Below, in pieces: positions 29,627 through 53,792 of a stretch of DNA of 64,000 bases. The stretch spans positions 1,488,001-1,552,000 of the forward strand of contig NZ_AP025171.1 in assembly GCF_003402535.2 (NCBI RefSeq), in the 5' to 3' direction. Numbering within the stretch: the first letter of the stretch is position 1; each line of letters opens with the position of its first letter. The notes below the pieces were generated by a model. The model was not told the origin of the DNA and did no database searches. It was given only the letters and a program-made list of their open reading frames with translations. This stretch comes from Cupriavidus sp. P-10 (GTDB lineage: Bacteria > Pseudomonadota > Gammaproteobacteria > Burkholderiales > Burkholderiaceae). The translations under genes were made by a program, and so were the position numbers.

Positions 29627-30092
29627 GGGTCTGATCTCCAGTGCATGCGTGCGTGGTCGCACGAGCAGCGGATTATAACCAGCAGACCGCCATCGGCAAC
29701 GACCGACATTCCAGCAAGGGGGAGATGTACAGGTCACTCATACCATTGTGTTAGTCCGACGCGCGCCGGTGCCGAACCGTGCGCCCGATTCCGGTGCAAC
29801 CTGCCGGTGCAAGCCGGTGCAAGCCGGTGCAAGCCGGTGCAAGCCGGTGCAAGCCGGTGCAAGCCGGTGCAATCGGCCGGTGCAATCGTGCCCGGGCCGA
29901 CTAATACCATCATGCAATGGCGATCCCTGCGCTTGCCGTCTAGTCTTCTATCCGGGCTGCGCTGCCGTGCCGTCCGCCGGTCGAAGTCCTGACCCCGCAA
30001 AACAGCGGCCACCCCGGCGGCACGCAAGCCGGCTCCCCCGGCACCCGCGAGGTGCCTTCATCCTGCTTCCCGATTCCAGGAGGGATTGATCG
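29627..30092. other. Divergent promoter region with tandem repeats
   Basis: This 466-nt gap separates the FixJ-like regulator and the hydrolase operon. It contains the 10-bp repeat array at 29804-29870, flanked by the direct repeats ATACCATTGTG (29740-29750) and ATACCATCATG (29904-29914). TTAGTC (29751-29756) and GACTAA (29899-29904) are inverted with respect to each other at the same two places. These paired motifs are candidate binding sites for the response regulator. No gene is seen. Confidence 0.6.
29804..29870. repeat. 10-bp tandem repeat array (AAGCCGGTGC)n
   Basis: Six perfect copies of AAGCCGGTGC fill 29811-29870, preceded by a partial copy CCGGTGC at 29804 and followed by degenerate relatives (AATCGGCCGGTGCAATCG). 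The unit is close to one turn of the DNA helix, so copy-number change would alter the distance between flanking promoter elements without changing their face. Confidence 0.95.
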
Positions 30093-38525: not shown

Positions 38526-38783
38526 ATGCGATGGACACAGCGATTGCGCATCCGGCAACTGCACGTCCTTGTCGAACTGCACCGCATCCGGAACCTGAGC
38601 CGGACCGCAGCGAACCTCGACATGACCCAGTCCGCCCTGTCGAAGTGGCTGGCTGAACTGGAGGACGACCTCGGCGTCCCATTGTTCGAACGGGAGCCCA
38701 AGGGCATCAGGCCGACCGCGTGGTCGCCTGACGGTTCGCCCGCCAGGCGGACGCATTCCATGAATGCCCGGCGCGGTCCGTAA
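38526..38783 (+). pseudogene. Truncated LysR-family regulator (HTH only)
   Basis: The first 65 codons encode a clear LysR DNA-binding domain: LRIRQLHVLVELHRIRNLSR, then DMTQSALSKWLAELEDDLG and PLFEREPKGIRPT. The reading frame then loses all similarity and stops after 85 residues, against about 300 in intact family members. No effector-binding domain is found in the following sequence on either strand. It is most likely a gene remnant next to the tRNA cluster. A short functional DNA-binding protein is less likely but not excluded. Confidence 0.65.
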
Positions 38784-38908: not shown

Positions 38909-38926
38909 TGTGCATAATGTGCACAA
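38909..38926. promoter_or_regulatory. Palindromic operator upstream of acyl-CoA ligase operon
   Basis: TGTGCATAATGTGCACAA is identical over 18 nt to the palindrome between the IclR gene and the Atu-like operon at 52979-52996. The arms TGTGCA/TGCACA flank TAATG, and CATAAT inside it resembles a -10 box. It lies 83 nt before the ligase start. Confidence 0.7.
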
Positions 38927-39008
38927 CTGACGCCGGCGCCCTTGTCCCCGCGGACCCGATACGCTTGAATCGGGTCACCCTTCCGGCAGAGGAAGGATGG
39001 AGACAAAG

Positions 39009-41171
39009 ATGCCTATTCCCAACACGGCGCGGCCACCGGTACGCGCCGATCGCACCGCACTGGCGCAGCTGCTTGAGCCCGCCTCGATCGCCATCATCGG
39101 CGCCTCGCGCGATACCAGCCGCATCGGCGGCGTGGCGCTGGACCACCTGCAGCGCCTCGGCTACCAGGGGCAGGTTTATCCGGTCAATCCGCGCTATGCG
39201 GAGATCGCCGGGCTGGCCTGCTATCCCGATGTAGAGTCCCTGCCGGCGGTGCCGGACGTGGCGGTGCTGGCGCTTGGCGCCGACGAAGTGCTCCCGCAGC
39301 TGCAGCGCTGCCATGTCCGCGGCATCCGGGCCGCCATCCTCTATGCGTCGGGTTTTGCCGAGGCCGGAGAGGCCGGTGTCGCGCGCCAGGCCGCGCTGGC
39401 CGCCTTCGCGCGCGAAAGCGGCATGGCCATCGCCGGGCCCAACTGCATGGGGCTGGCCAACCTGACCACGCGCGCCATCACCGCCTTTGCCACCACCTTC
39501 CGCGCCTACCCGCCGCAGGACGGCCCCGGCGCCGTCAGCCTGCTGACGCAGAGCGGCAATGTCTGCGCCATCGTCTATGCCACCGGCCGGCAGATGGACG
39601 TGGGCTTCCACCAGTTCATCAATACCGGCAACGAAGCCTGCCTGGACTACGCCGACTACCTCGACTACCTGGCCGACGACGCCCGGACCGGCGCCGTGGT
39701 CGGCTACGTGGAGGGCCTGCGCAGCGGCCCGCGCTTTATCGACGCCGCGGCGCGGCTGCGCGCGGCGGACAAGCCACTGGTCGTGCTCAAGGCCGGCGAA
39801 AGCGAGGCCGGTTCGGCGGCCACGCAGTCGCACACGGCCGTGCTGGCCGGCAACCAGGCCATCTACCGCGCCGCCTTCGCCCAGGTCGGCGCGATGCAGG
39901 CGACCGATCCCACCCACCTGACCGACCTGGCCTACCTGTCGGGCTTCCGCCAGCGCAGCGCGGGCCGCCGCGTGGTGGTGGCGTCGGTGTCGGGTGCGAT
40001 GGGTGCGCTGTCCGCCGACCTGCTCAGTGCCGCCGGACTGGACGTGCCGTGCCTGGCCGAGCCGGTGCAGCAGCGCCTGCAGGCCGCCGTACCGGAGATC
40101 GGCTCGGCGGCGAATCCGGTCGACCTGACCGGCCAGCTGTTCAACCGCAGCGGCCTTGCCTATGCCGTGCTCGACAACCTGGCGGCGGTCGACGGCGTCG
40201 ACGTGATCTTCCTGTACGCGACCGCCTACCTGCTCGACCGCGTGGCGGACGAACTGATCGACGTGGCGGGCAAGACCGGCCGGCTGATCGTCGTCGCCAC
40301 CACCGGCGAGCCGGCCAGCCGCGCCCGGCTGGCCGCGGCCGGCGTGGCGCTGTTCCCGGATGTGGCGCGTGCGGCCAAGGCCCTGGGCACGTACGTCGGT
40401 TGGCTGGGCACGCGGGCCCCGACCGCGCATTGGATGGCGTTGCGTGCGCAGGCCGCCGGCCACGCGCCGGCCAGCGACGCGCCCGGCGCCGCCATGGACG
40501 AGTACCAGGCCAAGCACTGGCTGGCCGGCTTCGGCGTGCCGACAGGCTTGGAAGCGGTCGCAGCCACTCCCGCCGATGCCGCGCGCGCCGCCGAGAGCCT
40601 CGGCTTCCCGGTGGCGGTCAAGGTGCTCAGCCCCGACATCGCCCACAAGACCGAAGTCGGCGGCGTGCAACTGGGACTGCGCGACGCGCAGCAGGTGCAG
40701 GACGCCGCCGCCGAAGTGGTCGCCGCCGCGGCGCACGCCAGGCCGCAGGCACGCCAGCGCGGCGTGCTGGTGCAGCAGATGGCCAGCGGCGTCTGCGAGC
40801 TGATCGTCGGCGTGACGCGCGACCCGGTGTTCGGCCCGGCCATGACGGTCGGCCTGGGCGGGATCTTTACCGAAGTCTTCCACGACGTCGCGCACCGCTT
40901 GCTGCCGGTAGACCGCGCCATGGCCCGCGAGATGCTTGCCAGCCTGCGCGGCTACCGGCTGATGACCGGCTTCCGCGGCAAGCCCCCAGCCGATATCGAC
41001 GCGGCCGCGGACGCCATCGCCGCGCTTTCCGACGCCGCAATGGCGCTCGGCGACTCGCTCGCTGAACTGGAAGTGAACCCCCTGCTGGTGCGCGAGGCTG
41101 GCCGCGGCGCGGTCGCGCTTGACGCGCTGGTGCTGACGCAGCAACCGAACCACGACGGAGAGCGGCAATGA
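39009..41171 (+). CDS. Acyl-CoA synthetase, ADP-forming (acetate--CoA ligase family)
   Basis: The product (about 720 residues) fuses a CoA-binding domain (IAIIGASRDTSRIGG near the start), succinyl-CoA-ligase-like domains (GPNCMGLAN, LLTQSGN, the phospho-His in SHTAVLAGN) and a C-terminal ATP-grasp domain (DEYQAKHWLAGFGVP, VAVKVLSPDIAHKTEVGGV). It joins CoA to a carboxylic acid using ATP, giving ADP. I prefer ATG 39009 with GGAG 6 nt upstream over ATG 38997. As the first gene of an operon with a receptor, a reductase and an acyl-CoA dehydrogenase, it should activate the imported acid. Its stop overlaps the next start (ATGA). Confidence 0.92.
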   Translation: MPIPNTARPPVRADRTALAQLLEPASIAIIGASRDTSRIGGVALDHLQRLGYQGQVYPVNPRYAEIAGLACYPDVESLPAVPDVAVLALGADEVLPQLQRCHVRGIRAAILYASGFAEAGEAGVARQAALAAFARESGMAIAGPNCMGLANLTTRAITAFATTFRAYPPQDGPGAVSLLTQSGNVCAIVYATGRQMDVGFHQFINTGNEACLDYADYLDYLADDARTGAVVGYVEGLRSGPRFIDAAARLRAADKPLVVLKAGESEAGSAATQSHTAVLAGNQAIYRAAFAQVGAMQATDPTHLTDLAYLSGFRQRSAGRRVVVASVSGAMGALSADLLSAAGLDVPCLAEPVQQRLQAAVPEIGSAANPVDLTGQLFNRSGLAYAVLDNLAAVDGVDVIFLYATAYLLDRVADELIDVAGKTGRLIVVATTGEPASRARLAAAGVALFPDVARAAKALGTYVGWLGTRAPTAHWMALRAQAAGHAPASDAPGAAMDEYQAKHWLAGFGVPTGLEAVAATPADAARAAESLGFPVAVKVLSPDIAHKTEVGGVQLGLRDAQQVQDAAAEVVAAAAHARPQARQRGVLVQQMASGVCELIVGVTRDPVFGPAMTVGLGGIFTEVFHDVAHRLLPVDRAMAREMLASLRGYRLMTGFRGKPPADIDAAADAIAALSDAAMALGDSLAELEVNPLLVREAGRGAVALDALVLTQQPNHDGERQ

Positions 41172-42184
41172 GAGACGACACCATCGACACCCGCCGCCGC
41201 GACACGCTGGGGCTGCTGGGCCTGGGCGCGCTGGCGCCGCTGGGCACGCTGGGCACGCTGGGTATGCTGACCTCCGGCGCCGCGCGGGCGGCTGATTTCC
41301 CCGCGCGGCCGGTCACGCTGATCGTGCCGTTCGCGGCCGGCGGCGCCACCGATACGCTGGTGCGCACGCTGGCCGACAGCGCCGGCAAGACGCTGGGCCA
41401 GCCGGTCGTCGTGGAGAACAAGCCCGGCGCAGCCGGCGTGCTGGGCGCCAACGTGGTCGCGCGCGCCAAACCCGACGGCTACACCCTGACGGTGATCCCG
41501 GAGCCGGTGTTCCGGCTGCCGCACCTGCAAAAGACGCAATACGACCCGCTGCGCGATTTCACCTATGTGATCCACCTGACCGGTTACACGCTGGGCGTGG
41601 CGGCGCGCGCCGACGCGCCGTGGAAATCGTGGCAGGAAATGATTGACGATGCGCGGCGCCGTCCGGGCAAGATCAGCTACGGCAGCACCGGCACCAACGG
41701 CACCATGCACGTGACCATGGAAGAGATCGGGCAGAAGCTCGGCGTCCAGTTCAACCATGTGCCCTACAAAGGCGAGTCCGAGATCATCGCCGCGCTGATG
41801 GGCGGGCATATCGACCTGGGCGTCACGGCCGGCGGCATCGGCCCCTATGTCGACAGCGCCAGGGCGCGCTGGCTGGTGCTCTGGACGGCCGAACACTCGC
41901 GCCGCTGGCCGCGCGTGCCGACGCTGCGCGATGTCGGCATCGACATCGTGTCCACCTCGCCCTTCGGCATCGCCGGCCCGCGCGACATGGACGCGCAGGC
42001 CGTGCAGCTGCTGCACGACGCCTTCCGCAAGGCGCTCAACGAGCCGGCGATGCAGAAGCTGCTGGAGCGGCTCGACCAGGAGAACGCCTACCTGAACAGC
42101 GCCGACTACGCCGCCTTCGCGCGCCAGCGCTATGAAAGCCAGGGCAAGCTGGTCAAGCGCCTGGGCCTGACTGCCAACCCCTGA
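41168..42184 (+). CDS. Bug/TctC-family solute receptor
   Basis: The 338-residue periplasmic receptor has a twin-Arg-containing signal region (TRRRDTLGLLGLG, then an LGTLGTLG repeat, ending AARAA). Bug family marks are FPARPVTLIVPFAAGGATDTL, VENKPGAAGVLGANVVARAKPDGYTL and HVPYKGESEIIAALMGGHI. It overlaps the acyl-CoA ligase gene by 4 nt. The tight coupling suggests that it collects the acid which the ligase then activates. Confidence 0.93.
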   Translation: MRDDTIDTRRRDTLGLLGLGALAPLGTLGTLGMLTSGAARAADFPARPVTLIVPFAAGGATDTLVRTLADSAGKTLGQPVVVENKPGAAGVLGANVVARAKPDGYTLTVIPEPVFRLPHLQKTQYDPLRDFTYVIHLTGYTLGVAARADAPWKSWQEMIDDARRRPGKISYGSTGTNGTMHVTMEEIGQKLGVQFNHVPYKGESEIIAALMGGHIDLGVTAGGIGPYVDSARARWLVLWTAEHSRRWPRVPTLRDVGIDIVSTSPFGIAGPRDMDAQAVQLLHDAFRKALNEPAMQKLLERLDQENAYLNSADYAAFARQRYESQGKLVKRLGLTANP

Positions 42185-42204
42185 CGCCTGATTTCGGAGC
42201 CCGC

Positions 42205-43089
42205 ATGCAATATCGATCCGTCTTCCACACCGGCCTGTTCGCCGGCCGTACCGTGCTGGTCACTGGCGCCGGCAGCGGCATTGGCCGCTGCACCGCGCAT
42301 GAACTGGCCAGCCTGGGCGCGCGCGTGGCGCTGGCCGGCCGCAAGCTGGAAAAGCTGGAACAGGTCCGCGAGGAAATCATCGACGCCGAGCCAGACGCCG
42401 CAGACCGGCTGACGCTGCACAGCTGCGACATCCGCGACGAGGCGCAGGTGCGCGAGACCGTGGCCGCGGTGCTGGCGGCTCACGGCAGCATCGATGGCAT
42501 CTTCAACAACGCCGGGGGGCAGTTCCCGTCGCCACTGCGCGACATCAGCCTGAAGGGCTGGGAAGCGGTGGTGCGCAACAACCTGACCGGCGGCTTCCTG
42601 GTGGCGCGCGAATGCTTCACGCAATGGATGGAAGCCAACGGTGGCGCCATCGTCAACATCATCGCCGACATGTGGAACGGCATGCCGGGCATGGGCCATT
42701 CCGGCGCGGCGCGTGCCGGCATGCTGTCGTTCACCGAGACGGCGGCGTGCGAATGGGCCGCCGCAGGCGTGCGCGTCAACGCCGTGGCGCCGGGCTGGAT
42801 CGCCTCCAGCGGCTTTGACACCTATCCATCCGAATTCCAGGCCAAGATCCGCCAGCTGGCCCGCAAGGTGCCGTTGCAGCGCCTGGGCACCGAGGCCGAG
42901 GTTTCCGCGGCGGTGGTGTTCCTGCTGTCTCCGGCGGCGGCCTTCATTACCGGCTCGACCCTGCGCGTCGACGGCGGCGTGCCCAATGCCAAGCACACCT
43001 GGCCGCAGCCACAGCACCAGCGCTCGCAGCCATACAACGGCTTCCCGCTCTACACGCTGCCGCAATGCCTGACGCCGTCCAACGAGTAA
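42205..43089 (+). CDS. SDR, peroxisomal trans-2-enoyl-CoA reductase (PECR)-like
   Basis: The 294-residue protein has the SDR cofactor loop VTGAGSGIGRC and NNAGGQFPSP. The usual YxxxK is replaced by GHSGAARAGM, that is His for Tyr and Arg for Lys. From memory, human PECR has the same HSGAARAG segment and the same QFLSP and SIVNII surroundings, so this is a bacterial relative of PECR rather than a broken SDR. PECR-type enzymes use NADPH to reduce 2-enoyl-CoA. Here it could reduce or oxidise a CoA intermediate of the operon. It has 20 nt before it and 9 nt after it in the same operon. Confidence 0.88.
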   Translation: MQYRSVFHTGLFAGRTVLVTGAGSGIGRCTAHELASLGARVALAGRKLEKLEQVREEIIDAEPDAADRLTLHSCDIRDEAQVRETVAAVLAAHGSIDGIFNNAGGQFPSPLRDISLKGWEAVVRNNLTGGFLVARECFTQWMEANGGAIVNIIADMWNGMPGMGHSGAARAGMLSFTETAACEWAAAGVRVNAVAPGWIASSGFDTYPSEFQAKIRQLARKVPLQRLGTEAEVSAAVVFLLSPAAAFITGSTLRVDGGVPNAKHTWPQPQHQRSQPYNGFPLYTLPQCLTPSNE

Positions 43090-43098
43090 GCGAACACC

Positions 43099-44250
43099 AT
43101 GACCCTGCAACCGCCCAACCCGCGCTACTACAGCGCGGACCATGAAGCGTTCCGCGCCAGCGTGCGGCGCTTCTTCGAAAAGGAAGTCGCGCCCAACGCC
43201 GAGGCCTGGGACGAAGCCGGCAGCTTCCCGCGCGAGCTGTACCGCAAGGCGGCGCAAGCCGGCCTGCTGGCGCCCGGTTTTCCCGAGGAGTACGGCGGCG
43301 CGCCATGCGACGCCTTCTACCGCATGATCCTATTCGAGGAGCGCGCCTGGGGCGGCTCGGGCGGGATCGCCTCGGGGCTGTTCTCGCACACCATCGGCGC
43401 GCCGCCGATCGCCGCGGTGGGCAGCGAGGCGCTGAAGGCGCGCGTGCTGCCGCAGATCCTGTCGGGCGAGAAGATCTCTGCGCTGGCGATCACCGAGCCC
43501 GACGCCGGCTCCGACGTGGCCCGGCTGTCGACCAGCGCGCGCCGCGAAGGCGATCACTACGTCGTCAACGGTACCAAGCTCTATATCACCTCCGGCATGC
43601 GCGCCGACTACTTCACCGTGGCCGTGCGCACCGGCGGCCCGGGCACAAGCGGTGTCTCGCTGCTGCTGATCGAGGGGGACACGCCGGGCCTGAGCCGCAC
43701 GCCGCTGAAGAAAATGGGCTGGTGGGCGTCCGACACCGCGCAACTGTTCTTCGAGGACTGCCGCGTGCCGGTGGCAAACCTGGTCGGCGAGGAAGGCAGG
43801 GGCTTTGCCGCGATCACCCGCAACTTCAACCACGAGCGCCTGGCGCTGGCGGCGGCGGCCTGCGGCTATGCCCAGGTGTGCTTCCACGACGCGCTGGCGT
43901 GGGCACGCGAGCGCCATACCTTCGGCAAGCGGCTGGCCGACCACCAGGTGGTGCGCCACCAGCTGGTCGACATGGCTACGCGCATCGAATCCACGCGCAC
44001 CCTGCTCGACGACCTGGCCGCGCGCCTGGACGACGGCGCCGCACCGGTGGCGCAGATCGCGATGGCCAAGAACATGGCCACGCGGACCTTCCAGTTCTGC
44101 GCGGACCGCGCGGTGCAATTGCTGGGGGGGATGGGCTATATGCGCGGCAGCCGCGTAGAGCGGCTGTATCGCGAAGTCAAGGTGATGATGATCGGCGGCG
44201 GCGCCGAGGAAATCATGAAGGACCTGGCGGCAAAGCAACTGGGGCTGTAA
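43099..44250 (+). CDS. Acyl-CoA dehydrogenase
   Basis: The 383-residue flavoprotein shows ITEPDAGSDVA, VNGTKLYITSGMRAD, RTFGKRLADHQ (as HTFGKRLADHQ) and the C-terminal QLLGGMGYMRGSRVERLYREVKV segment of short/branched-chain acyl-CoA dehydrogenases. It is the last gene of the ligase operon, followed by a strong hairpin terminator shared with the facing operon. A second acyl-CoA dehydrogenase is encoded in that facing operon, so the pathway has two separate dehydrogenation steps or two substrates. Confidence 0.92.
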   Translation: MTLQPPNPRYYSADHEAFRASVRRFFEKEVAPNAEAWDEAGSFPRELYRKAAQAGLLAPGFPEEYGGAPCDAFYRMILFEERAWGGSGGIASGLFSHTIGAPPIAAVGSEALKARVLPQILSGEKISALAITEPDAGSDVARLSTSARREGDHYVVNGTKLYITSGMRADYFTVAVRTGGPGTSGVSLLLIEGDTPGLSRTPLKKMGWWASDTAQLFFEDCRVPVANLVGEEGRGFAAITRNFNHERLALAAAACGYAQVCFHDALAWARERHTFGKRLADHQVVRHQLVDMATRIESTRTLLDDLAARLDDGAAPVAQIAMAKNMATRTFQFCADRAVQLLGGMGYMRGSRVERLYREVKVMMIGGGAEEIMKDLAAKQLGL

Positions 44251-44256
44251 GCGCCA

Positions 44257-44287
44257 AGCGCCCGCGGCTTCCGCTGCGGGCGCTTTC
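44257..44287. terminator. Bidirectional terminator between convergent operons
   Basis: AGCGCCCGC and GCGGGCGCT form a perfect 9-bp stem with a 10-nt loop, followed by TTTCCCC on the plus strand. It sits between the stop codons of the two facing operons. Confidence 0.75.
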
Positions 44288-44303
44288 CCCGGGCAAGTCC
44301 TGC

Positions 44304-45302
44304 TTATTCCAGCTTCACACCGCTCTTCCTCACCACCTCGCCCCAGCGCACCGCTTCCGTCCTGATAAAGGCCTGGAACTGATCGGGCTTGCCGCCGACC
44401 GGATCGATGCCATAGTCGATCAGCCGCGCGCGCACGTCGGGCTGGTGCAGCACGGCGTCCATGTCGGCCGACAGCTTCGCCAGCACCGCCGGCGGCGTCT
44501 TCGCCGGCGCCAGCAGGCCGATCCAGCTGCCCGCCGTCACCGCCGGGAAGCCGGCTTCGGCCATGGTCGGCACCTCCGGCGCGGCCGGCCAGCGCGTCGG
44601 GCTGGTGATCGCCAGCGCGCGCACCTTGCCTGCCTTCACCTGCGGCATCATGGTCTGCACCGAATCGAAGATCACCGCAACCTGCCCTGAGAACAGGTCG
44701 GGCAACGCCGGCGAGATGCCCTTGTATGGCACGTGCGTCATCTTCATGCCGACCGCCTGCGCGAACAACTCGCCCGCCAGGTGCGCGCCGGAGCCGGTGC
44801 CACTAGACGCAAAGGTCATCTTGTCCGGGTTCGCCTTGCCCCAGCCCACCAGCTCCCTGACGCTGGTCGGCGGCAGTTGCGCGCTGCCGACCAGCAGCAG
44901 CGGGATCCGGCCGATCATGCTGACGCCGGTCAGGTCCTTGACCGGGTCATAGCTCATCCTGGCGTACAGGCTCGGGTTGATGGCGTGGGCGGCGACCACG
45001 ACCAGCAGCGAGTAGCCGTCCGGCGCGGATCTGGCGACGTTCTCCGAGCCGATCATGCCGTTGGCGCCGCCACGGTTTTCCACCACCACCGGCTGGCCGA
45101 TGCGCTCGGACAGCTTCTGCATGACCAGCCGCGTCACGGCGTCGGACACGCCGCCGGGCGTATACGGCACCACCACGCGGACCGGCCGGTTCGGATAGGC
45201 GTCGCCCTGCGCCAGTGCCGGAATGGCGCCGGCAAGGCTGCCGGCGAGCAGGCTCAGCGTCAGCAGGCGGCGTACGTGCGCGTTGCGCTTGGATCGGGTC
45301 AT
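44304..45302 (-). CDS. Bug/TctC-family solute receptor
   Basis: The 332-residue receptor has a signal peptide (RRLLTLSLLAGSLAGAIPALAQG) and Bug motifs YPNRPVRVVVPYTPGG, VENRGGANGMIGSENVARSAPDGY and HVPYKGISPALPDL. ATG 45302 follows AAGGAGGAG. It ends the Atu-like operon, 30 nt after atuA, and mirrors the second Bug gene in the facing operon. Both may bind substrates of the same branched-acid pathway. Confidence 0.93.
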   Translation of the reverse strand: MTRSKRNAHVRRLLTLSLLAGSLAGAIPALAQGDAYPNRPVRVVVPYTPGGVSDAVTRLVMQKLSERIGQPVVVENRGGANGMIGSENVARSAPDGYSLLVVVAAHAINPSLYARMSYDPVKDLTGVSMIGRIPLLLVGSAQLPPTSVRELVGWGKANPDKMTFASSGTGSGAHLAGELFAQAVGMKMTHVPYKGISPALPDLFSGQVAVIFDSVQTMMPQVKAGKVRALAITSPTRWPAAPEVPTMAEAGFPAVTAGSWIGLLAPAKTPPAVLAKLSADMDAVLHQPDVRARLIDYGIDPVGGKPDQFQAFIRTEAVRWGEVVRKSGVKLE

Positions 45303-45332
45303 GTGTCTCCTCCTTGTCAGGGGTGGCCGGGT

Positions 45333-47143
45333 CTATGCCCAGCTGCGCGGTACGGAAAGCGGGAAATCGAGCAGCATCTGCGCGTAGCTCTTGCCCAGCG
45401 GGTCGGAGCGCAGGCTGGCCACGCCGCCGCCGCCCAGCGCGCCATGCATCAGGAAGTTCAGCGCATGCAGGCCGGGCACGTCGAAGCGCTCGACCTCGCC
45501 CTCCACCAGGTGGGCAAAGTACGCGCGCACGGCCTGCGGCGTCAGTTGTTCACGCAGCAACGCCAGGTATTCCGGCTTGCGCGCAATCACGCCGATGTTC
45601 TCGTCGTCGCCCTTGTCGCCGCTGCGGGCGTAGGCCAGCGCGACCAGCGGCAGTCGCACGCGCGGCTCGTCGGGTACCGGCGACAGTGCCGGGCCGCTAA
45701 CCACGGCGGGCGCCTCCGGTGCGGCGCTGGTTGCAGCATCGGGCAGCATGATCACGCCCCCCTCGAATTCCACCCGCATCGGCACGTCCGCCTTGGGCAC
45801 GAGGAACGAAAACACTTTCACCACCGGCTGGATATCGACACGCCCGGCAAAGGACGAGCGCGTGCCGGCCGCCATCGACGTTCCCGCCGACGAGCATTCG
45901 CGCTGCAGGAAGCTCAGGCCCCGCGCCAGCGGGTGGCGCGCGCCGATGCGCAGCACCACCTCGCGCGTTGGCAGCTCCCGCGCATGGGCGCCGTATTGCG
46001 ATTCACAGCCCAGCAACTCCACCACAGTCTCGGTGTAGTCAGGCATGCCGCGTTCGGCCAGCATGGCGCGGGTGCGCGCCAGCAGCGCGTCGGCGGTGCG
46101 GCGGGCCTTGGCCGGGGCGTCGATGCCGCGGATTGCCATCATCAGGCTGATCTGGAAGCCGTCCTGCCAGGTGGCGTTGCCCTTGTAGTGGGTGCCGGGC
46201 GCCCGGCCGCGTGCGCCATCCACGCGCACGCGGCCGGGTTCGACCAGCTTGGTGCGGACCATGCGGAAGTCGCAGGTCACGTCCGGCATCAGGTAGTTGG
46301 CGGGGTCGCCCACCTCGTACAGCACCTGCTCGGCGACCGCGGCGGGGTCGACCAGCCCGCCGGTGCCTTCCGGCTTGCTCAGCATGAAGCTGCCGTCGTG
46401 CGCGCAGTCGATCACCGGGTAACCCATCCGATCCCAGCCGGGCACGCGCTCCCAGTCGGTAAACAATCCGCCGGTGGCCTGCGCGCCGCATTCGATCACA
46501 TGGCCCGCGAGCGTGCCGGCGGCAAGGCGGTCCCAGTCGGTCCAGTCCCAGCCGAATTCGTGCGCCAGCACCCCGACCACCACGGCGCTGTCGACGCAAC
46601 GGCCGGCGATGACGATGTCGGCGCCCAGCGCCAGCGCGCGGGCAATGCACTGCGCGCCGGTGTAGGCGTTGGCCGACCACGGTTCGGTGGTCGGCACGGC
46701 GTCGCCGGCCAGGTCGGTCAGCCCGTCGGCGCACCATTGCGCAAAGCGGGGCTGCACGTCGTCGCCGGTGACCACGGCGATGCGCGGCTTCAGGCCCTGC
46801 TGCGCGGCGATCTTGAGCAGCGCGTCGCGGCAGGCTTCCGGGTTGAGCCCGCCGGCGTTGGCAACTACCCGGACGCCGCGCTGCAGGATCCCGGCAAGGT
46901 TGGGCCCCATCGCCGCCTGCACGAAATCGGTGGCGTAGCCCAGCGCCGGGTCCCTGGCGCGGGCGCGCGCCAGGATCGACATGGTGGTCTCGGCCAGGTA
47001 GTCGTAGACCAGGTACTGCAGGCCTGGAACGGCCAGCAGTTGCGGCGTGGCGATAGCGGAATCGCCCCAGAAGCCGGACGCGCCACCGATGCGCACGGTC
47101 TTGCCGGTGCGTGCCTCCGCGGCTTCGGTATTTGTCAGTTCGC

Positions 47144-47147
<4 letters not shown>
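45333..47147 (-). CDS. atuA: AtuA-family protein (acyclic terpene utilisation)
   Basis: The 604-residue product has the AtuA core (RIGGASGFWGDS at the start, YDYLAETTMSILARAR, IVIAGRCVDSA) and the C-terminal AtuA-like alpha/beta domain (VALAYARSGDKGDDENIGVIAR). In Pseudomonas, AtuA belongs to the citronellol/geraniol pathway; its exact reaction is unclear. The start ATG overlaps the stop of the carboxylase alpha gene by 4 nt. Its presence, with both carboxylase subunits, is the main reason to call this operon Atu-like rather than leucine (Liu) pathway. Confidence 0.9.
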
Positions 47148-49159
<2,012 letters not shown>

Positions 49160-49201
49160 GGGGGAATCCTGTGAATTTCCGGGAATTGGCTGGCGGAGTT
49201 G

Positions 49202-50047
49202 TCAGCTCGCCGATTGGGCGCCGCGCACGGCATCGGCATCGAAGCGCACCGTCCAGTTCGCGTCGCGCTTCTCGCGGAAGGCCGCGACGCCTTCTGCACC
49301 CTCGCTGCGCATGCACTGGGCGAACAGCCGCGAGGCTTCGTCCAGCAGCGGCCCCGCCGGCTCCTGGCCGCAGCGGCTGACCAGCGTCTTGAACACGCGG
49401 TTGGCATTGGGCCCGCAGCGGCCGATGCGCGTCAGCCATTCGGCGACCAGCGCGTCCAGCTCGGCGCTGTCGGCGGCCAGCTGGTCGACCAGCCCGATCG
49501 CCACCGCGGCCTCGCCGCTGATGCGTTCGCCGGTGAGGCCCAGGCGGCGCGTGGCGGCCGCGCCGATGCGCTGCACCACGAACGGCGCGATCTGCGCGGC
49601 GATGATGCCCAGCGTGGTTTCAGACAGCGCGAAGCGCGCGTCCCGCGTGGCCAGCACGATGTCGGCGGCGCACGCCAGGCCCATGCCGCCGCCCATCGCG
49701 GCGCCGTCCACGGCGGCGATGACCGGCACCGGCAGCGCGCTCAGCCGCTGCATGAAATAGCCGAACTGGCGGTTGCGGGTGGCGACCGGATCTTCCCGGC
49801 TGGCATCGGCATCGAGCCGCGCCTGGAAGTTGCCGACGTTGCCGCCGGCGCTGAACATGCCGCCGGCGCCGCGCAGCACCAGCGCGCGCACCTCTGGGTC
49901 GGCTTCGGCCTGCTCGACCGCACCGGCCAGCGCGGCGACGACCTCGGGCGCCAGCGCATTGCGCGTGGCCGGGATATTGAGGGTGGCGAACAGCACGCCG
50001 CCGGCGCGGCGCACGATCACGGGTTCGGTTTGCGTTGGCACGGTCAT
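49202..50047 (-). CDS. Enoyl-CoA hydratase, AtuE/LiuC-like
   Basis: The 281-residue crotonase has the oxyanion-hole segments VLRGAGGMFSAGGNVGNF and AVDGAAMGGGMGLACAADI, and SETTLGIIAAQIAPFV at the second catalytic region, a pattern shared by methylglutaconyl- and isohexenylglutaconyl-CoA hydratases. In an Atu-type pathway it hydrates the carboxylated product. ATG 50047 follows AGGAA at 6 nt. The gap to the upstream dehydrogenase is 15 nt. Confidence 0.88.
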   Translation of the reverse strand: MTVPTQTEPVIVRRAGGVLFATLNIPATRNALAPEVVAALAGAVEQAEADPEVRALVLRGAGGMFSAGGNVGNFQARLDADASREDPVATRNRQFGYFMQRLSALPVPVIAAVDGAAMGGGMGLACAADIVLATRDARFALSETTLGIIAAQIAPFVVQRIGAAATRRLGLTGERISGEAAVAIGLVDQLAADSAELDALVAEWLTRIGRCGPNANRVFKTLVSRCGQEPAGPLLDEASRLFAQCMRSEGAEGVAAFREKRDANWTVRFDADAVRGAQSAS

Positions 50048-50062
50048 GGCGGTTCCTGCCTG

Positions 50063-51232
50063 TCAGCCGCGGGACTCGCGCGACATCAGGCCCATCTGCT
50101 TGGCGATGACCTGCAGCATCACTTCGTCCGCGCCGCCGCCGATCGAGCCCAGGCGGAAATCCCGGTACGCACGCGACGCATGGTTGTCCCAGGTGTAGCC
50201 CATGCCGCCCTGGAACTGCATGCACCAGTCGGCCACCTCGCGCGACAGCCGCCCGGCCTTGAGCTTGGCCATCGACGCCAGCTCGACCACGTCGCCGCCT
50301 GCGATATAGGTCTGGGTGGCCAGGTAGACCAGCGCGCGCAGCGCCTCCATCTCGGTCTTCAGTTCGGCCAGCTTGAACTGGATGAACTGGTTGTCCAGCA
50401 GCGGCTTGCCGAAGGCGACGCGCTGGCGCAGGTACTCGGCGGTTTCCTCGATCAGCGCGGTGCAGGCCAGCCGGCGCGCCGCGCCGTTCAGCCGCTCTTC
50501 CTGGAACTGCTTCATCTGGTAGATGAAGCCCATGCCCTCCTCGCCAATGCGGTTGCGTACCGGCACGCGCACTTCGTCGAAGAAGATCTGCGCGGTGTCC
50601 GAGCACCACATGCCGAACTTCCTGATCTTCTGCACTTCCACGCCGCGCACGCGCTTGCCGTCTTCCCTGAGCGGCACCACGATCAGCGATTTGTTCTTGT
50701 GGACCGGACCGTCGGAGGTGTTGCACAGCAGGCAGATCCAGTCCGACTGGGTGCCGTTGGTGATCCACATCTTGGAGCCTGAGATGACATAGTCGTCGCC
50801 GTTGCGCACGGCGCGCGTCTTGAGCGAGGCCACGTCGGAGCCGGCGCCCGCCTCGGACACGCCGATGGAGCACACCATGTCGCCGGTGATGGCAGGTGCC
50901 AGGTAGTTGCGCTTGAGTTCTTCCGAGCCGAACGCGGTCAGCGCCGGCGTGGCCATGTCGGTCTGCACGCCCACGCCCATGCCGACGCCTTGTGCGCGCG
51001 CATAGCCGAGCGCCTCGGCGGCGGCGACGGCGTAGGAGAAGTCGAGCCCCATGCCGCCGTACTCCACCGGCTTGGTGATGCCGAGGAAGCCGAGGCCGCC
51101 CATCTTCTTGAACAGCTCGTGCGCCGGGAACACCTCGGCGGCTTCCCATTCATCGACGAAGGGATCGATCTCCGCCGAAACGAAGCGGCGGATGCTGTCC
51201 ATGATGTTGCGGTGGTCTTCGGTGTAAAGCAT
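50063..51232 (-). CDS. atuD: Acyl-CoA dehydrogenase, citronellyl-CoA dehydrogenase (AtuD)-like
   Basis: The 389-residue flavoprotein shows VSEAGAGSDVASLKT, ISGSKMWITNGTQSDWI, FQEERLNGAARR and the C-terminal MQFQGGMGYTWDN. The segment GVGVQTDMATPAL is, from memory, typical of AtuD, which dehydrogenates citronellyl-CoA to geranyl-CoA. ATG 51232 follows GGAG at 7 nt. It lies between the carboxylase beta subunit and the hydratase, as expected for the Atu order of events. Confidence 0.85.
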   Translation of the reverse strand: MLYTEDHRNIMDSIRRFVSAEIDPFVDEWEAAEVFPAHELFKKMGGLGFLGITKPVEYGGMGLDFSYAVAAAEALGYARAQGVGMGVGVQTDMATPALTAFGSEELKRNYLAPAITGDMVCSIGVSEAGAGSDVASLKTRAVRNGDDYVISGSKMWITNGTQSDWICLLCNTSDGPVHKNKSLIVVPLREDGKRVRGVEVQKIRKFGMWCSDTAQIFFDEVRVPVRNRIGEEGMGFIYQMKQFQEERLNGAARRLACTALIEETAEYLRQRVAFGKPLLDNQFIQFKLAELKTEMEALRALVYLATQTYIAGGDVVELASMAKLKAGRLSREVADWCMQFQGGMGYTWDNHASRAYRDFRLGSIGGGADEVMLQVIAKQMGLMSRESRG

Positions 51233-51283
51233 GCTGGTCTCCTGGATTTCGTTGCGTTCTGTTTGTCTGTGGGGCGGCGGCGC

Positions 51284-52903
51284 TCAGAAGCGCCCGACGC
51301 CGAACTGGATGGCATGCGGCTGGCGCAGCGCCGCCTCGCGCGCGGTGGCCAGCACAAAGGCCAGCACGGCGCGCGTGTCGCGCGGATCAATCACGCCGTC
51401 GTCCAGCAGCAGCCCGCTGGTGACGAAGGCGCTCGCCTGGCGCTCGAAGTTGGCGACGATCTCGGCGGTCTGGCCGGCCAGTTGCGCCTCGTCGACCGGC
51501 TTGCCCTTGCGCGCCGCCTGCTGGCGCGCCACGATCTCCAGCGTCATGGCGGCCTGTTCGCCGCCCATCACCGCCGTGCGCGCGTTCGGCCACGAGAAGC
51601 AGAAGCGCGGCCTGAAGCCCCGCCCGCACATGCCGAAGTTGCCCGCGCCGAACGAGGCGCCACAGTACAGCGTAATCTGCGGCACTTTGGAGTTGGACAG
51701 CGCCTGGATCATCTTGGAGCCGTGCTTGATCATGCCGGCCTCTTCCGAGGCGCGCCCGACGATAAAGCCAGTGGTGTTCTGCAGGAAGACGATCGGCGTG
51801 CCGGACTGGTTGCACAGCTGGATGAACTGCGCGGCCTTGGTCGCCCCGGCCGGGTCGATCGGACCGTTGTTGGTGATGAAGCCGACGGTATGGCCTTCGA
51901 TGCGGGCATGGCCGCACACGGTGCCCGGGCCGTAGTCGGGCTTGAACGGCAGCCACGCCGAATCGTCAACGATGCGCGCGATCACCTCGCGCATGTCGAC
52001 CGGGCGCTTCATGTCCAGTGTCATGACGCCGTCCAGTTCCGACGCGTCGAGCCGCGGCGCACGGGCCGGCTGCGCCGGCTGGGGCTCCACCTTGGGCCAG
52101 TCCAGGCTGGCGACGATGTCGCGGGCGGTGGCGATGGCGTGTTCGTCATCCTCCGCCAGGTACTCGGCCAGCCCGGTGGCGGTGGCGTGCAGGTCGGCGC
52201 CGCCCAGTTCCTCGTCGGTGGCGATCTCGCCGGTGGCGGCCTTCAGCAGCGGCGGGCCGGCCAGGAAGGCGCGGGCGCGGTTGCGCACCATCACCACGTA
52301 GTCGGACAGGCCGGGCATGTAGGCACCGCCGGCCGTGGACGAGCCGTGTACCACCGTGATCACCGGCAGGCCGGCCGCGGACAGCCGCGCCAGGTTGTAG
52401 AAGATGGCGCCGCCGCGCACGAACTTGTCGACGCGGTACTTGCGCAGGTTTGCGCCGGCCGATTCCACCAGGTGGATAAAGGGCAGCCGGTTTTCCAGCG
52501 CGATTTCCTGGCAGCGCACCAGCTTCATGTTGCCGGCCTCGGTCATGGCGCCGGCATCGATGCCGGAATCCGTGGCGAGCACCATGCAGCGCACGCCGCA
52601 CACGAAGCCGATGCCGGCCACCAGCGAGCCGCCGGGAATCGACGTCTGCGGGTCGGGATCGTCCATGCCGAAGCCCGCCAGCGTGGACAGCGGCAGGAAA
52701 GGCGCGCCCGGGTCGAGCAGGCGGCCGACGCGCTCGCGCGGCAGCAGCGCGCCGCGCTTGGCGAAGGTGGGCCGGGAGCGCTCGGAAGCGGCGACGGCAC
52801 GCTGCTCCAGCCCGTGCAGGCGGTCGATCAGGGCCTGCATGCCGGCGCGCTGGCTGGCGAAGGCGTCGGAGGACGTGTCAATGCGGGATTCGATGGGGAT
52901 CAT
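51284..52903 (-). CDS. atuC: Acyl-CoA carboxylase beta subunit (carboxyltransferase)
   Basis: The 539-residue carboxyltransferase has RGALLPRERVGRLLDPG, VHGSSTAGGAYMPGLSDY, QNTTGFIVG and FGAGNFGMCGRGFRPRF. It transfers CO2 from biotin to a 3-methyl-branched enoyl-CoA. I chose ATG 52903, since upstream codons to 52945 look non-coding. As first gene of the operon it is 73 nt from the palindromic operator. It fits AtuC (geranyl-CoA) or LiuB (methylcrotonyl-CoA); neighbours favour AtuC. Confidence 0.88.
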   Translation of the reverse strand: MIPIESRIDTSSDAFASQRAGMQALIDRLHGLEQRAVAASERSRPTFAKRGALLPRERVGRLLDPGAPFLPLSTLAGFGMDDPDPQTSIPGGSLVAGIGFVCGVRCMVLATDSGIDAGAMTEAGNMKLVRCQEIALENRLPFIHLVESAGANLRKYRVDKFVRGGAIFYNLARLSAAGLPVITVVHGSSTAGGAYMPGLSDYVVMVRNRARAFLAGPPLLKAATGEIATDEELGGADLHATATGLAEYLAEDDEHAIATARDIVASLDWPKVEPQPAQPARAPRLDASELDGVMTLDMKRPVDMREVIARIVDDSAWLPFKPDYGPGTVCGHARIEGHTVGFITNNGPIDPAGATKAAQFIQLCNQSGTPIVFLQNTTGFIVGRASEEAGMIKHGSKMIQALSNSKVPQITLYCGASFGAGNFGMCGRGFRPRFCFSWPNARTAVMGGEQAAMTLEIVARQQAARKGKPVDEAQLAGQTAEIVANFERQASAFVTSGLLLDDGVIDPRDTRAVLAFVLATAREAALRQPHAIQFGVGRF

Positions 52904-52975
52904 GGCTGGTGCCTGTGGTTCCGTGATGGATGGATTGCAAACCACGGCGCCCCGCGCGACAACCGCAATCGCTCA

Positions 52976-52998
52976 GATTGTGCATAATGTGCACAATC
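52976..52998. promoter_or_regulatory. IclR operator in divergent promoter
   Basis: GATTGTGCA-TAATG-TGCACAATC is a perfect inverted repeat with 9-nt arms and a 5-nt spacer, midway between the divergent IclR gene and the Atu-like operon. Eighteen of its bases recur at 38909-38926 upstream of the ligase operon. Confidence 0.75.
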
Positions 52999-53045
52999 TT
53001 CCTATCCTGGGAGTGTCTTCCGACGCTCCGCCGACGCATCCAGCC

Positions 53046-53792
53046 ATGCCCACCAAATCCTCCGCCCCCGGCGGCGTCCAGAGCCTGGCGCGTGCCTTCA
53101 CCCTCTTGCAATTGCTGGCTGAACACCATGACGCCGGCCTGGCGCTGCCCGACCTGGCCGCGCTGGCCGGCATCGACCGCACCACCGCGCATCGCATGGC
53201 GCGCTTCCTGGAAGCCGGCGCATATATCGAGCGCGAGTCGGCCGGCAAGCGCTATCACCTCGGCACCGCCGCAATGGCGCTCGGGCTGCGCGCCATGAAC
53301 CGGCCGCCGCCGAACAGCGCCCTCGTCAGCAAGATGAAGGCGCTGGCCCGCCTGACTGGCGACGCGGTCTTCCTGATCGTGCGCATTGGCGACCACGGCC
53401 ATTGCCTGCATACGGAGGAAGGCAGCCATCGCATCAAGAGCTTCCACATGCTGACCGGCACCTCGCGCCTGCTGGGCCAGGGCACCGGCAGCATGGCGCT
53501 GCTGGCCAAGATGGACAACGAGGCCGTCCGCGCCCACTACGAGCGCCACCGCGCCGAGTACGAAGCCGGCGGCCTGAGCCTGCTCAAGCTGATGCGCGGC
53601 GTCGAACGCAGCCGCAAGCTGGGCTATGCGCTGGCCGGCGCAGAAGGCGTGGCCGGCGTGGGCTACGCCTTGCCGCTGGCAATGGGCGCGGATGCGGCCA
53701 TCAGCATCGTCTCGACTGCGTCGCGGATGTCGGCGGCGCGCCGGCATGAAATGGGCGGGATCATCGTGGCGATGTTCGCGCAGCAAGGGTGA
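53046..53792 (+). CDS. IclR-family regulator
   Basis: The 248-residue product has an N-terminal winged helix (GVQSLARAFTLLQLLAEH, DLAALAGIDRTTAHRMARFL) and a C-terminal IclR effector domain (GDAVFLIVRIGDHGHCLH, GYALAGAEGVAGVGYALPL). It is divergent from the Atu-like operon, with a 23-bp palindrome between them, and the same palindrome core is found upstream of the facing ligase operon. It therefore probably controls both, with an acyl-CoA or free acid as ligand. ATG 53046 is the first start after the operator. Confidence 0.92.
   Translation: MPTKSSAPGGVQSLARAFTLLQLLAEHHDAGLALPDLAALAGIDRTTAHRMARFLEAGAYIERESAGKRYHLGTAAMALGLRAMNRPPPNSALVSKMKALARLTGDAVFLIVRIGDHGHCLHTEEGSHRIKSFHMLTGTSRLLGQGTGSMALLAKMDNEAVRAHYERHRAEYEAGGLSLLKLMRGVERSRKLGYALAGAEGVAGVGYALPLAMGADAAISIVSTASRMSAARRHEMGGIIVAMFAQQG

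Follow-up and report, generated by a model that had tools for sequence, protein, structure and literature searches.

Two operons that face each other in Cupriavidus sp. P-10 raise the question of whether they serve one pathway under a single regulator. The stretch analysed here (the window) comprises 64,000 nt of contig NZ_AP025171.1 (positions 1,488,001 to 1,552,000, forward strand). It contains a forward operon, lig-bug1-sdr-acd1, a reverse operon, ct-acd2-ech-bc-atuA-bug2, and, next to the latter, a gene for an IclR-family regulator (Table 1). An initial annotation of the DNA had proposed that IclR governs both operons as one pathway, and this idea is strongly supported by the comparison of related genomes, that is, by operator conservation, co-occurrence and the merging of genes. 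Based on these sequences, it seems highly probable that one IclR controls both operons through a palindrome, TGTGCA-N5-TGCACA, near position -60 of two predicted promoters. Shared control is indicated because all orthologs tested retain the palindrome at both promoters, even where the operons lie apart, and because a lig ortholog was found only in genomes that bear the IclR gene. A single pathway is indicated because in other genomes the genes have merged into a single run and because enzymes of the acyclic terpene utilization (Atu) type occur in both operons.

The Palindrome in the Window and in the Genome

The regulator possesses the helix-turn-helix domain of its family (PF09339, 39.1 bits, cut-off 22) and the C-terminal effector domain (PF01614, 27.4 bits, cut-off 24). 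IclR-family proteins typically have a palindromic operator near their own gene and one or two operons (PMC8222616, excerpt). At the level of sequence, the palindrome of the window is placed as expected of this family, beside iclR and at two operons. The initial annotation had located an 18-nt sequence, TGTGCATAATGTGCACAA, upstream of the ligase operon and again between iclR and the Atu-like operon, and both copies are indeed exact, on the + strand at 38909-38926 and 52979-52996. Shuffled sequences gave an expectation of 0.01 window matches at up to three mismatches. When the 9.08-Mb genome (five contigs) was scanned for unrelated copies, as the annotation had suggested, no third place was found at this tolerance, and a reversed-pattern control gave 0.

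An exact copy in the genome has a mononucleotide expectation of 1.6e-5. However, 23 repeated 18-mers occur within the window, 10 of which stem from one tandem array, so the exact repeat alone is weak evidence, and the case is carried by conservation in relatives. A tandem array with a 10-bp unit (CCGGTGCAAG register) and about seven repeats lies at window positions 29803-29872.

Judged from the relatives, the conserved unit is the palindrome and not the 18-mer. The exact 18-nt identity is partly coincidence because the ligase-side spacer differs in five of the six linked relatives. The ligase-side centre in these relatives is CATTG (four), CAATG (one) or TAATG (one), and the ct-side centre reads TAATG in the iclR direction. 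The inverted repeat beside ct, described initially as a perfect 23-bp repeat at 52976-52998, turned out to be a 25-bp palindrome with a central A; 11 of its 12 pairs match, the exception being at +/-2. In the ligase-side copy, seven of the eight innermost positions pair, and a mismatch occurs at +/-9.

The repeated 18-mers, together with a decayed LysR fragment just upstream of the ligase promoter, could be taken as signs that the shared 18-mer arose by chance or by a recent functionless duplication. Yet all orthologs tested retain the palindrome at an unchanged spacing, with flanks that have diverged, which leaves this explanation with next to no likelihood; a chance origin of the palindrome is ruled out by its conservation and the lack of further genome copies.

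When the arms alone were searched, TGTGCA-N5-TGCACA with up to one arm mismatch occurred at 17 places in the genome, compared to six in the control. Exact arms were present at three places, the two window sites and a site at C2:358825 (C denotes contigs, L loci and G genomes). The latter, TGTGCAAGGAGTGCACA (L004 1501-1517), separates an alpha/beta hydrolase gene from a divergently oriented gene of the IclR family, and by eye this gene pair is mhpC/mhpR-like. A degenerate operator with up to two mismatches identified no extra regulon members in this genome, giving only the two window sites and two copies of TGTGCCTAATAGGCACA on contig C4, which were judged unrelated. These copies are perfect palindromes about 800 bp apart (C4:422620 and 423419; L159, L160) and are possibly partition sites of replicon C4; a nearby reading frame, ParB-like by eye, has no Pfam match.

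Conservation in Cupriavidus

In a sample of 60 Cupriavidus genomes, a relative of the window IclR (E 1e-60 or better) is present in 22. A ct ortholog lies beside iclR in 18 of the 20 loci examined, the exceptions being G020 and G038, and the palindrome precedes ct at all 19 Cupriavidus loci, window included, with 11-12 of the 12 arm bases. A search for the ligase gave 19 matches in 18 genomes. Orthologs, defined by at least 84% identity, were retained from 16 genomes, including G043, where the gene is in two fragments and the fragment closer to the start was taken. The matches left out, from G038 (62%) and the IclR-negative G009 (53%), have no site. All 16 orthologs are preceded by the palindrome, with 10-12 of the 12 arm bases.

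The ligase gene is linked to the ct operon in 7 of these 16 genomes, window included, and lies away from iclR in 8, while the assembly of G043 is too fragmented to place it relative to the ct operon. In G020, G033, G034 and G050 it is 0.8-1.8 Mb off iclR on the same contig, and in G015, G024, G040 and G059 it is on another contig of the draft. Six of the eight unlinked copies retain lig-bug1-sdr-acd1, and in G050 and G020 lig alone of the four genes is retained.

The co-occurrence of these elements is also informative. A lig ortholog is found in 16 of the 22 genomes with IclR and in none of the 38 without, and a site within one mismatch of TGTGCATAATGTGCACA in 19 of the 22 and 0 of the 38. The other three IclR-positive genomes have a site with two mismatches (G015), a site with two mismatches that is not beside iclR (G020), or none (G038). 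Distances between the lig proteins and between the IclR proteins are correlated (r 0.88, 15 genomes, 0 of 2000 permutations), which fits co-inheritance but may simply reflect the species tree. Moreover, the two operators of a genome agree at arm position 1, which is C in both in G015, G024, G034, G043, G050 and G059 and T in both in the other nine two-operator genomes. The shared C probably represents one evolutionary event per site. The lig and ct operators of the genus also have a common Y-A-W-T-R centre.

These observations bear on whether the ligase-side palindrome may be bound by some other IclR-family protein, such as that encoded at C2:358825, in which case the two operons would not form one regulon. 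That protein has its own exact-arm site, TGTGCAAGGAGTGCACA, beside its gene, and the MhpR operator, GGTGCACCTGGTGCACA, has 11 of 12 arm bases in common with the window palindrome (PMC8222616, excerpt). The protein is only 22% identical to the window IclR (E 0.77), however, and its site has the centre AGGAG in place of Y-A-W-T-R. The C shared by both operators in six genomes, and the restriction of lig to genomes with the window's type of IclR (16/22 vs 0/38), are further arguments against this explanation, which is quite improbable.

Loci Outside the Genus

When GTDB genomes were scanned with the ct alignment, 50 loci were obtained, eight from Cupriavidus and 42 from Variovorax, Limnohabitans, Paraburkholderia, an Alcaligenaceae metagenome-assembled genome (MAG), Alloalcanivorax/Alcanivorax, Pandoraea and others. 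Forty of the 42 were tested, the remaining two being without upstream DNA. Where an IclR gene (38-48% identical) is on the locus, the palindrome precedes ct in 24 of 24 cases with 11-12 of the 12 arm bases; where there is none, it does so in 2 of 16; for L119 and L139, both among these 16, the upstream DNA is too short to reveal an IclR gene. The Fisher test for this association gives 5e-9, uncorrected for relatedness. Neither the IclR gene nor the palindrome is found at the Alcanivorax-type and Pandoraea loci. A strict pattern of operator plus promoter matched three of 150 family genomes, all of them within the genus and IclR-positive.

Some loci are rearranged. In a Burkholderiaceae MAG (L124), ct-acd2-bug1-sdr-acd1-ech form one run, and a diverged paralogous cluster in G038 (L158) carries iclR-lig-ct-acd2-ech-bc-atuA-bug2 on one strand. 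The IclR of the latter has the helix LSRATAQR and its palindrome is TGCCCA-N5-TGGGCA, whereas all other compared IclR proteins have DRTT. In Variovorax sp. J22R187 (L118), the operator stands before both ct and bug1-acd1 with identical spacing, and Variovorax sp. YR216 (L116) has one operator in front of iclR and a second in front of ct.

Promoter Geometry and the Mode of Control

With the first operator base numbered 1, all 19 ct and all 16 lig promoters of Cupriavidus have a TTG beginning at position 34, 16 nt past the operator. At positions 57-62 the 19 ct promoters have the -10-like hexamer TGCAAT or TGGAAT. In the lig promoters this hexamer is TTGAAT, following after 17 nt (seven) or 18 nt (nine). 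Of the 26 ct promoters from other genera, 24 have TGCAAT, TGAAAT or TTCAAT at 57-62, and one of the two misses (L139) is an artefact, the locus beginning three bases before the operator. None of 54 distinct promoters departs from the T and G of the TTG or from the A at position 61, and most flanking columns are below 0.8 bit. If transcription starts about 7 nt past the -10 hexamer, the operator centre would lie near -60 at both operons, which favours an activator. Operators centred near -60 are typical of activators, for example MhpR, PobR and PcaU.

The family includes repressors, activators and dual regulators (PMC8222616, excerpt). IclR might thus bind both operators as a repressor that is released by inducer, like AtuR of Pseudomonas. 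Since the operator starts 54-84 bp before the iclR ATG (11 loci in which an ATG start was read), at least autorepression is plausible. On the other hand, the palindrome ends 16 nt before a -35-like hexamer at both operons in every Cupriavidus copy, a place typical of activators, and fixed spacing to the -35 and -10 elements is not needed for repression. Repression of both operons is therefore considered rather unlikely.

Several observations weigh against shared control by IclR or weaken its support. The conservation counts are inflated by relatedness. Three of the 38 IclR-negative genomes (G023, G035, G044) hold a two-mismatch match to TGTGCATAATGTGCACA, and the lig-side sites are weaker, with 10-11 of the 12 arm bases, in the nine genomes without linkage. 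G020 retains iclR and an operator-bearing lig (L044, L171), yet the genes from ct to atuA are gone and no site lies next to iclR. In five IclR-positive genomes (G003, G005, G007, G016, G017) no lig was found at 1e-220 among the 18 candidates scored per genome and no sdr at 1e-70, indicating that partnership with the ligase operon is not obligatory. None of the 136 family genomes from other genera has the strict operator-plus-promoter pattern, so the unit is uncommon in the family. Outside Cupriavidus the -35 element is TTG in only 11 of 26 promoters and TGG in 13. Finally, a consensus promoter scan listed neither the lig nor the ct promoter, and the hexamers are only moderate matches to sigma-70. 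The two-mismatch matches in G005 and G007 were set aside as coding-like by eye, the 3-kb locus having no homolog of a window gene.

Enzymes and the Proposed Pathway

The pathway resembles acyclic terpene utilization, and a branched acid of the geranyl or citronellyl type is, judging from the enzyme matches, its most likely substrate. The gene list of the initial annotation had omitted the carboxyltransferase, ct, which is the first gene behind the palindrome at 52979. The best match for ct in the PDB is a geranyl-CoA enzyme. In the beta subunit of geranyl-CoA carboxylase (GCC), Gly162 of PaGCC replaces Phe191 of methylcrotonyl-CoA carboxylase (MCC) (PMC4673880, excerpt). In the alignment, Gly164 of the window ct takes this diagnostic position and is invariant in the eight sequences aligned, whereas the two other carboxyltransferase genes of the genome retain Phe. 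In the stretch before this glycine, where MCC has a three-residue insertion, ct is longer than PaGCC by one residue and shorter than MCC by two. PDB matches did not separate GCC from MCC for bc.

The best match for sdr is 6lln, a 'Putative dehydrogenase involved in catabolism of citronellol', at 358 bits compared to 224 for PECR, so this match is better than that behind the earlier label of PECR-like reductase. The enzyme is presumably AtuB/AtuG-like. The hydratase matches 4k3w (203 bits) and 4zu2, an isohexenylglutaconyl-CoA hydratase (186 bits), with the next match at 115. The ligase matches 8wzu, an ADP-forming 4-hydroxybutyrate--CoA ligase, best (328 bits). Identity is 30% between bug1 and bug2 and 36% between acd1 and acd2.

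It is possible, though less than probable, that the operons degrade another beta-methyl-branched acid, such as a longer isoprenoid or a branched alkanoate, and not citronellate or geranate. The diagnostic glycine shows only that the pocket is open beyond methylcrotonyl-CoA, and the ten genes scanned include no alcohol or aldehyde dehydrogenase family apart from the short-chain dehydrogenase. Bug receptors and an ADP-forming ligase are also not listed for the Pseudomonas Atu pathway in the excerpt of PMC4097962. Against this, ct and sdr match geranyl-CoA or citronellol enzymes best in the PDB, and for ech such an enzyme ranks second.

AtuA scores 440.7 bits with PF07287 and has a C-terminal ferredoxin-like domain. 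Its main part has a fold like that of citramalate lyase subunit A (9erq/9evf), at 17-18% identity, and the matched structure was solved with ADP and pyruvate. The acetate-splitting 3-hydroxy-3-alkylglutaryl-CoA lyase step has been assigned by different papers to AtuA or LiuE.

For the system as a whole, we infer DNA binding, activation rather than repression, the inducer, the substrate and the order of the steps as follows. The Bug receptors would capture the acid, and the ADP-forming ligase would make its CoA ester. One or both acyl-CoA dehydrogenases would desaturate the ester, and ct with bc would carboxylate the gamma-methyl branch. The hydratase would then add water and AtuA would split off acetate, after which beta-oxidation and the MCC-type carboxylases of the genome could finish the degradation. 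IclR, as one dimer or two, would bind TGTGCA-N5-TGCACA near -60 of the two promoters, one firing ct-acd2-ech-bc-atuA-bug2 and the other lig-bug1-sdr-acd1. Once an inducer is bound, probably the acid after import or the CoA ester made from it, IclR would recruit RNA polymerase to both, and the operator copy within the iclR control region would allow autoregulation. More tentatively, an IclR-family activator may have replaced AtuR in part of the Burkholderiales, joining separated operons by a fixed -60 operator, with AtuA being the true 3-hydroxy-3-alkylglutaryl-CoA lyase, perhaps nucleotide-assisted; this combined proposal is speculative.

Layout of the Locus

The operons stand tail to tail, as first described, with their coding ends 53 bp apart around a hairpin. 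The single shared terminator that was also proposed is less certain: the hairpin has z scores of -2.6 on the + strand and -0.7 on the - strand, its T run is short, and it is absent from the list of a terminator scan. The start of lig is ambiguous. G024 has no counterpart of the ATG at 38997, and in G033 and G020 that ATG is not in frame, which makes the ATG at 39009 the likelier start. In all 15 genomes measured, lig has an in-frame ATG 97-103 nt downstream of the operator's first base. A truncated LysR helix-turn-helix remnant (PF00126, 66 bits) occupies 38526-38738, between a tRNA cluster and the ligase promoter.

Table 1. Features of the two operons and their regulator, in window coordinates.
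Feature	Position	Strand	Basis
IclR operator of ligase operon (predicted), TGTGCA-TAATG-TGCACA	38909..38925, centre 38917	+	kept before lig, 16/16 Cupriavidus orthologs
Predicted lig promoter: -35 TTGTCC 38942-38947, 17 nt, -10 TTGAAT 38965-38970	38942..38970	+	conservation
lig, ADP-forming acyl-CoA ligase, 724 aa from first ATG	38997..41171	+	best PDB 8wzu
bug1, TctC/Bug periplasmic receptor	41168..42184	+	PF03401
sdr, citronellol-catabolism-type short-chain dehydrogenase	42205..43089	+	best PDB 6lln
acd1, acyl-CoA dehydrogenase	43099..44250	+	family match
GC-rich hairpin between convergent operons, possible shared terminator	44256..44285	.	folding
bug2, TctC/Bug periplasmic receptor	44304..45302	-	family match
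atuA, AtuA domain and ferredoxin-like domain, probable C-C lyase	45333..47147	-	PF07287
bc, biotin carboxylase and biotin carrier domain, alpha subunit, AtuF-like	47144..49159	-	family match
ech, hydratase, AtuE-like	49202..50047	-	PDB matches
acd2, acyl-CoA dehydrogenase, AtuD role inferred from position	50063..51232	-	family match
ct, geranyl-CoA-carboxylase-type carboxyltransferase beta subunit, AtuC-like, diagnostic Gly164	51284..52903	-	
Predicted ct promoter: -35 TTGTCG 52962-52957, 17 nt, -10 TGCAAT 52939-52934	52934..52962	-	
IclR operator (predicted) between iclR and ct, 25-bp palindrome	52975..52999, centre 52987	.	kept at 19/19 Cupriavidus ct loci
iclR, IclR-family regulator, 248 aa, recognition helix IDRTTAHRM	53046..53792	+	

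Comparison With Known Systems

The Atu pathway itself is known, and what is judged to be new is an Atu-type pathway under IclR, with an ADP-forming ligase and split over two operons. In the searches made of the open-licence literature, no paper was found that ties an IclR protein to this pathway, and none on AtuA with citramalate lyase, on IclR, Cupriavidus and atuA together, or on geranyl-CoA carboxylase in Cupriavidus. Most descriptions of this terpenoid-acid pathway come from Pseudomonas, where it is under a repressor; the locus supplies a regulator, an operator and a promoter arrangement for it that can be tested, and offers an example of how a regulon may stay coordinated once its operons separate. 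The IclR and operator pair, along with the naturally re-specified version in G038, could act as a sensor element.

Both carboxylase subunits, the hydratase, AtuA, the citronellol-type short-chain dehydrogenase and the acyl-CoA dehydrogenase of the Pseudomonas atuABCDEFGH/AtuR system have counterparts in the window. AtuR, a regulator of the TetR class, lies beside the Pseudomonas operon, and IclR takes its place here. AtuR is described as a repressor (title cited in PMC4847356). The Pseudomonas genes form one cluster with AtuH, which catalyzes an AMP-forming acyl-CoA synthetase reaction (PMC4097962, excerpt), while the window has two operons, two Bug receptors and a ligase that is ADP-forming by family. 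An AtuH-type enzyme is thus absent from the locus, the search for an AMP-forming enzyme having been confined to it.

The E. coli MhpR operator shares its 5-nt centre length, as well as 11 of 12 arm bases, with the window operator (PMC8222616, excerpt), although the IclR with the MhpR-like site in this genome is only distantly related to that of the window. Unlike the MhpR type, the window IclR would control a pathway built around a CoA-ester carboxylase, together with another operon that is often unlinked. The MhpR operator is centred near -58, similar to the roughly -60 predicted here. DitR, which is associated with abietane diterpenoid genes, is likewise an IclR-type regulator in terpenoid catabolism (PMC12628601, excerpt). 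Its system is a ring-hydroxylating dioxygenase pathway without a carboxylase, unlike that of the window, and the two are likened by description and not by sequence. Lastly, the match between AtuA and the citramalate lyase fold makes the disputed acetate-splitting step directly testable; in contrast to citramalate lyase subunit A, the substrate of AtuA would be a CoA-bound 3-hydroxy-3-alkylglutarate.

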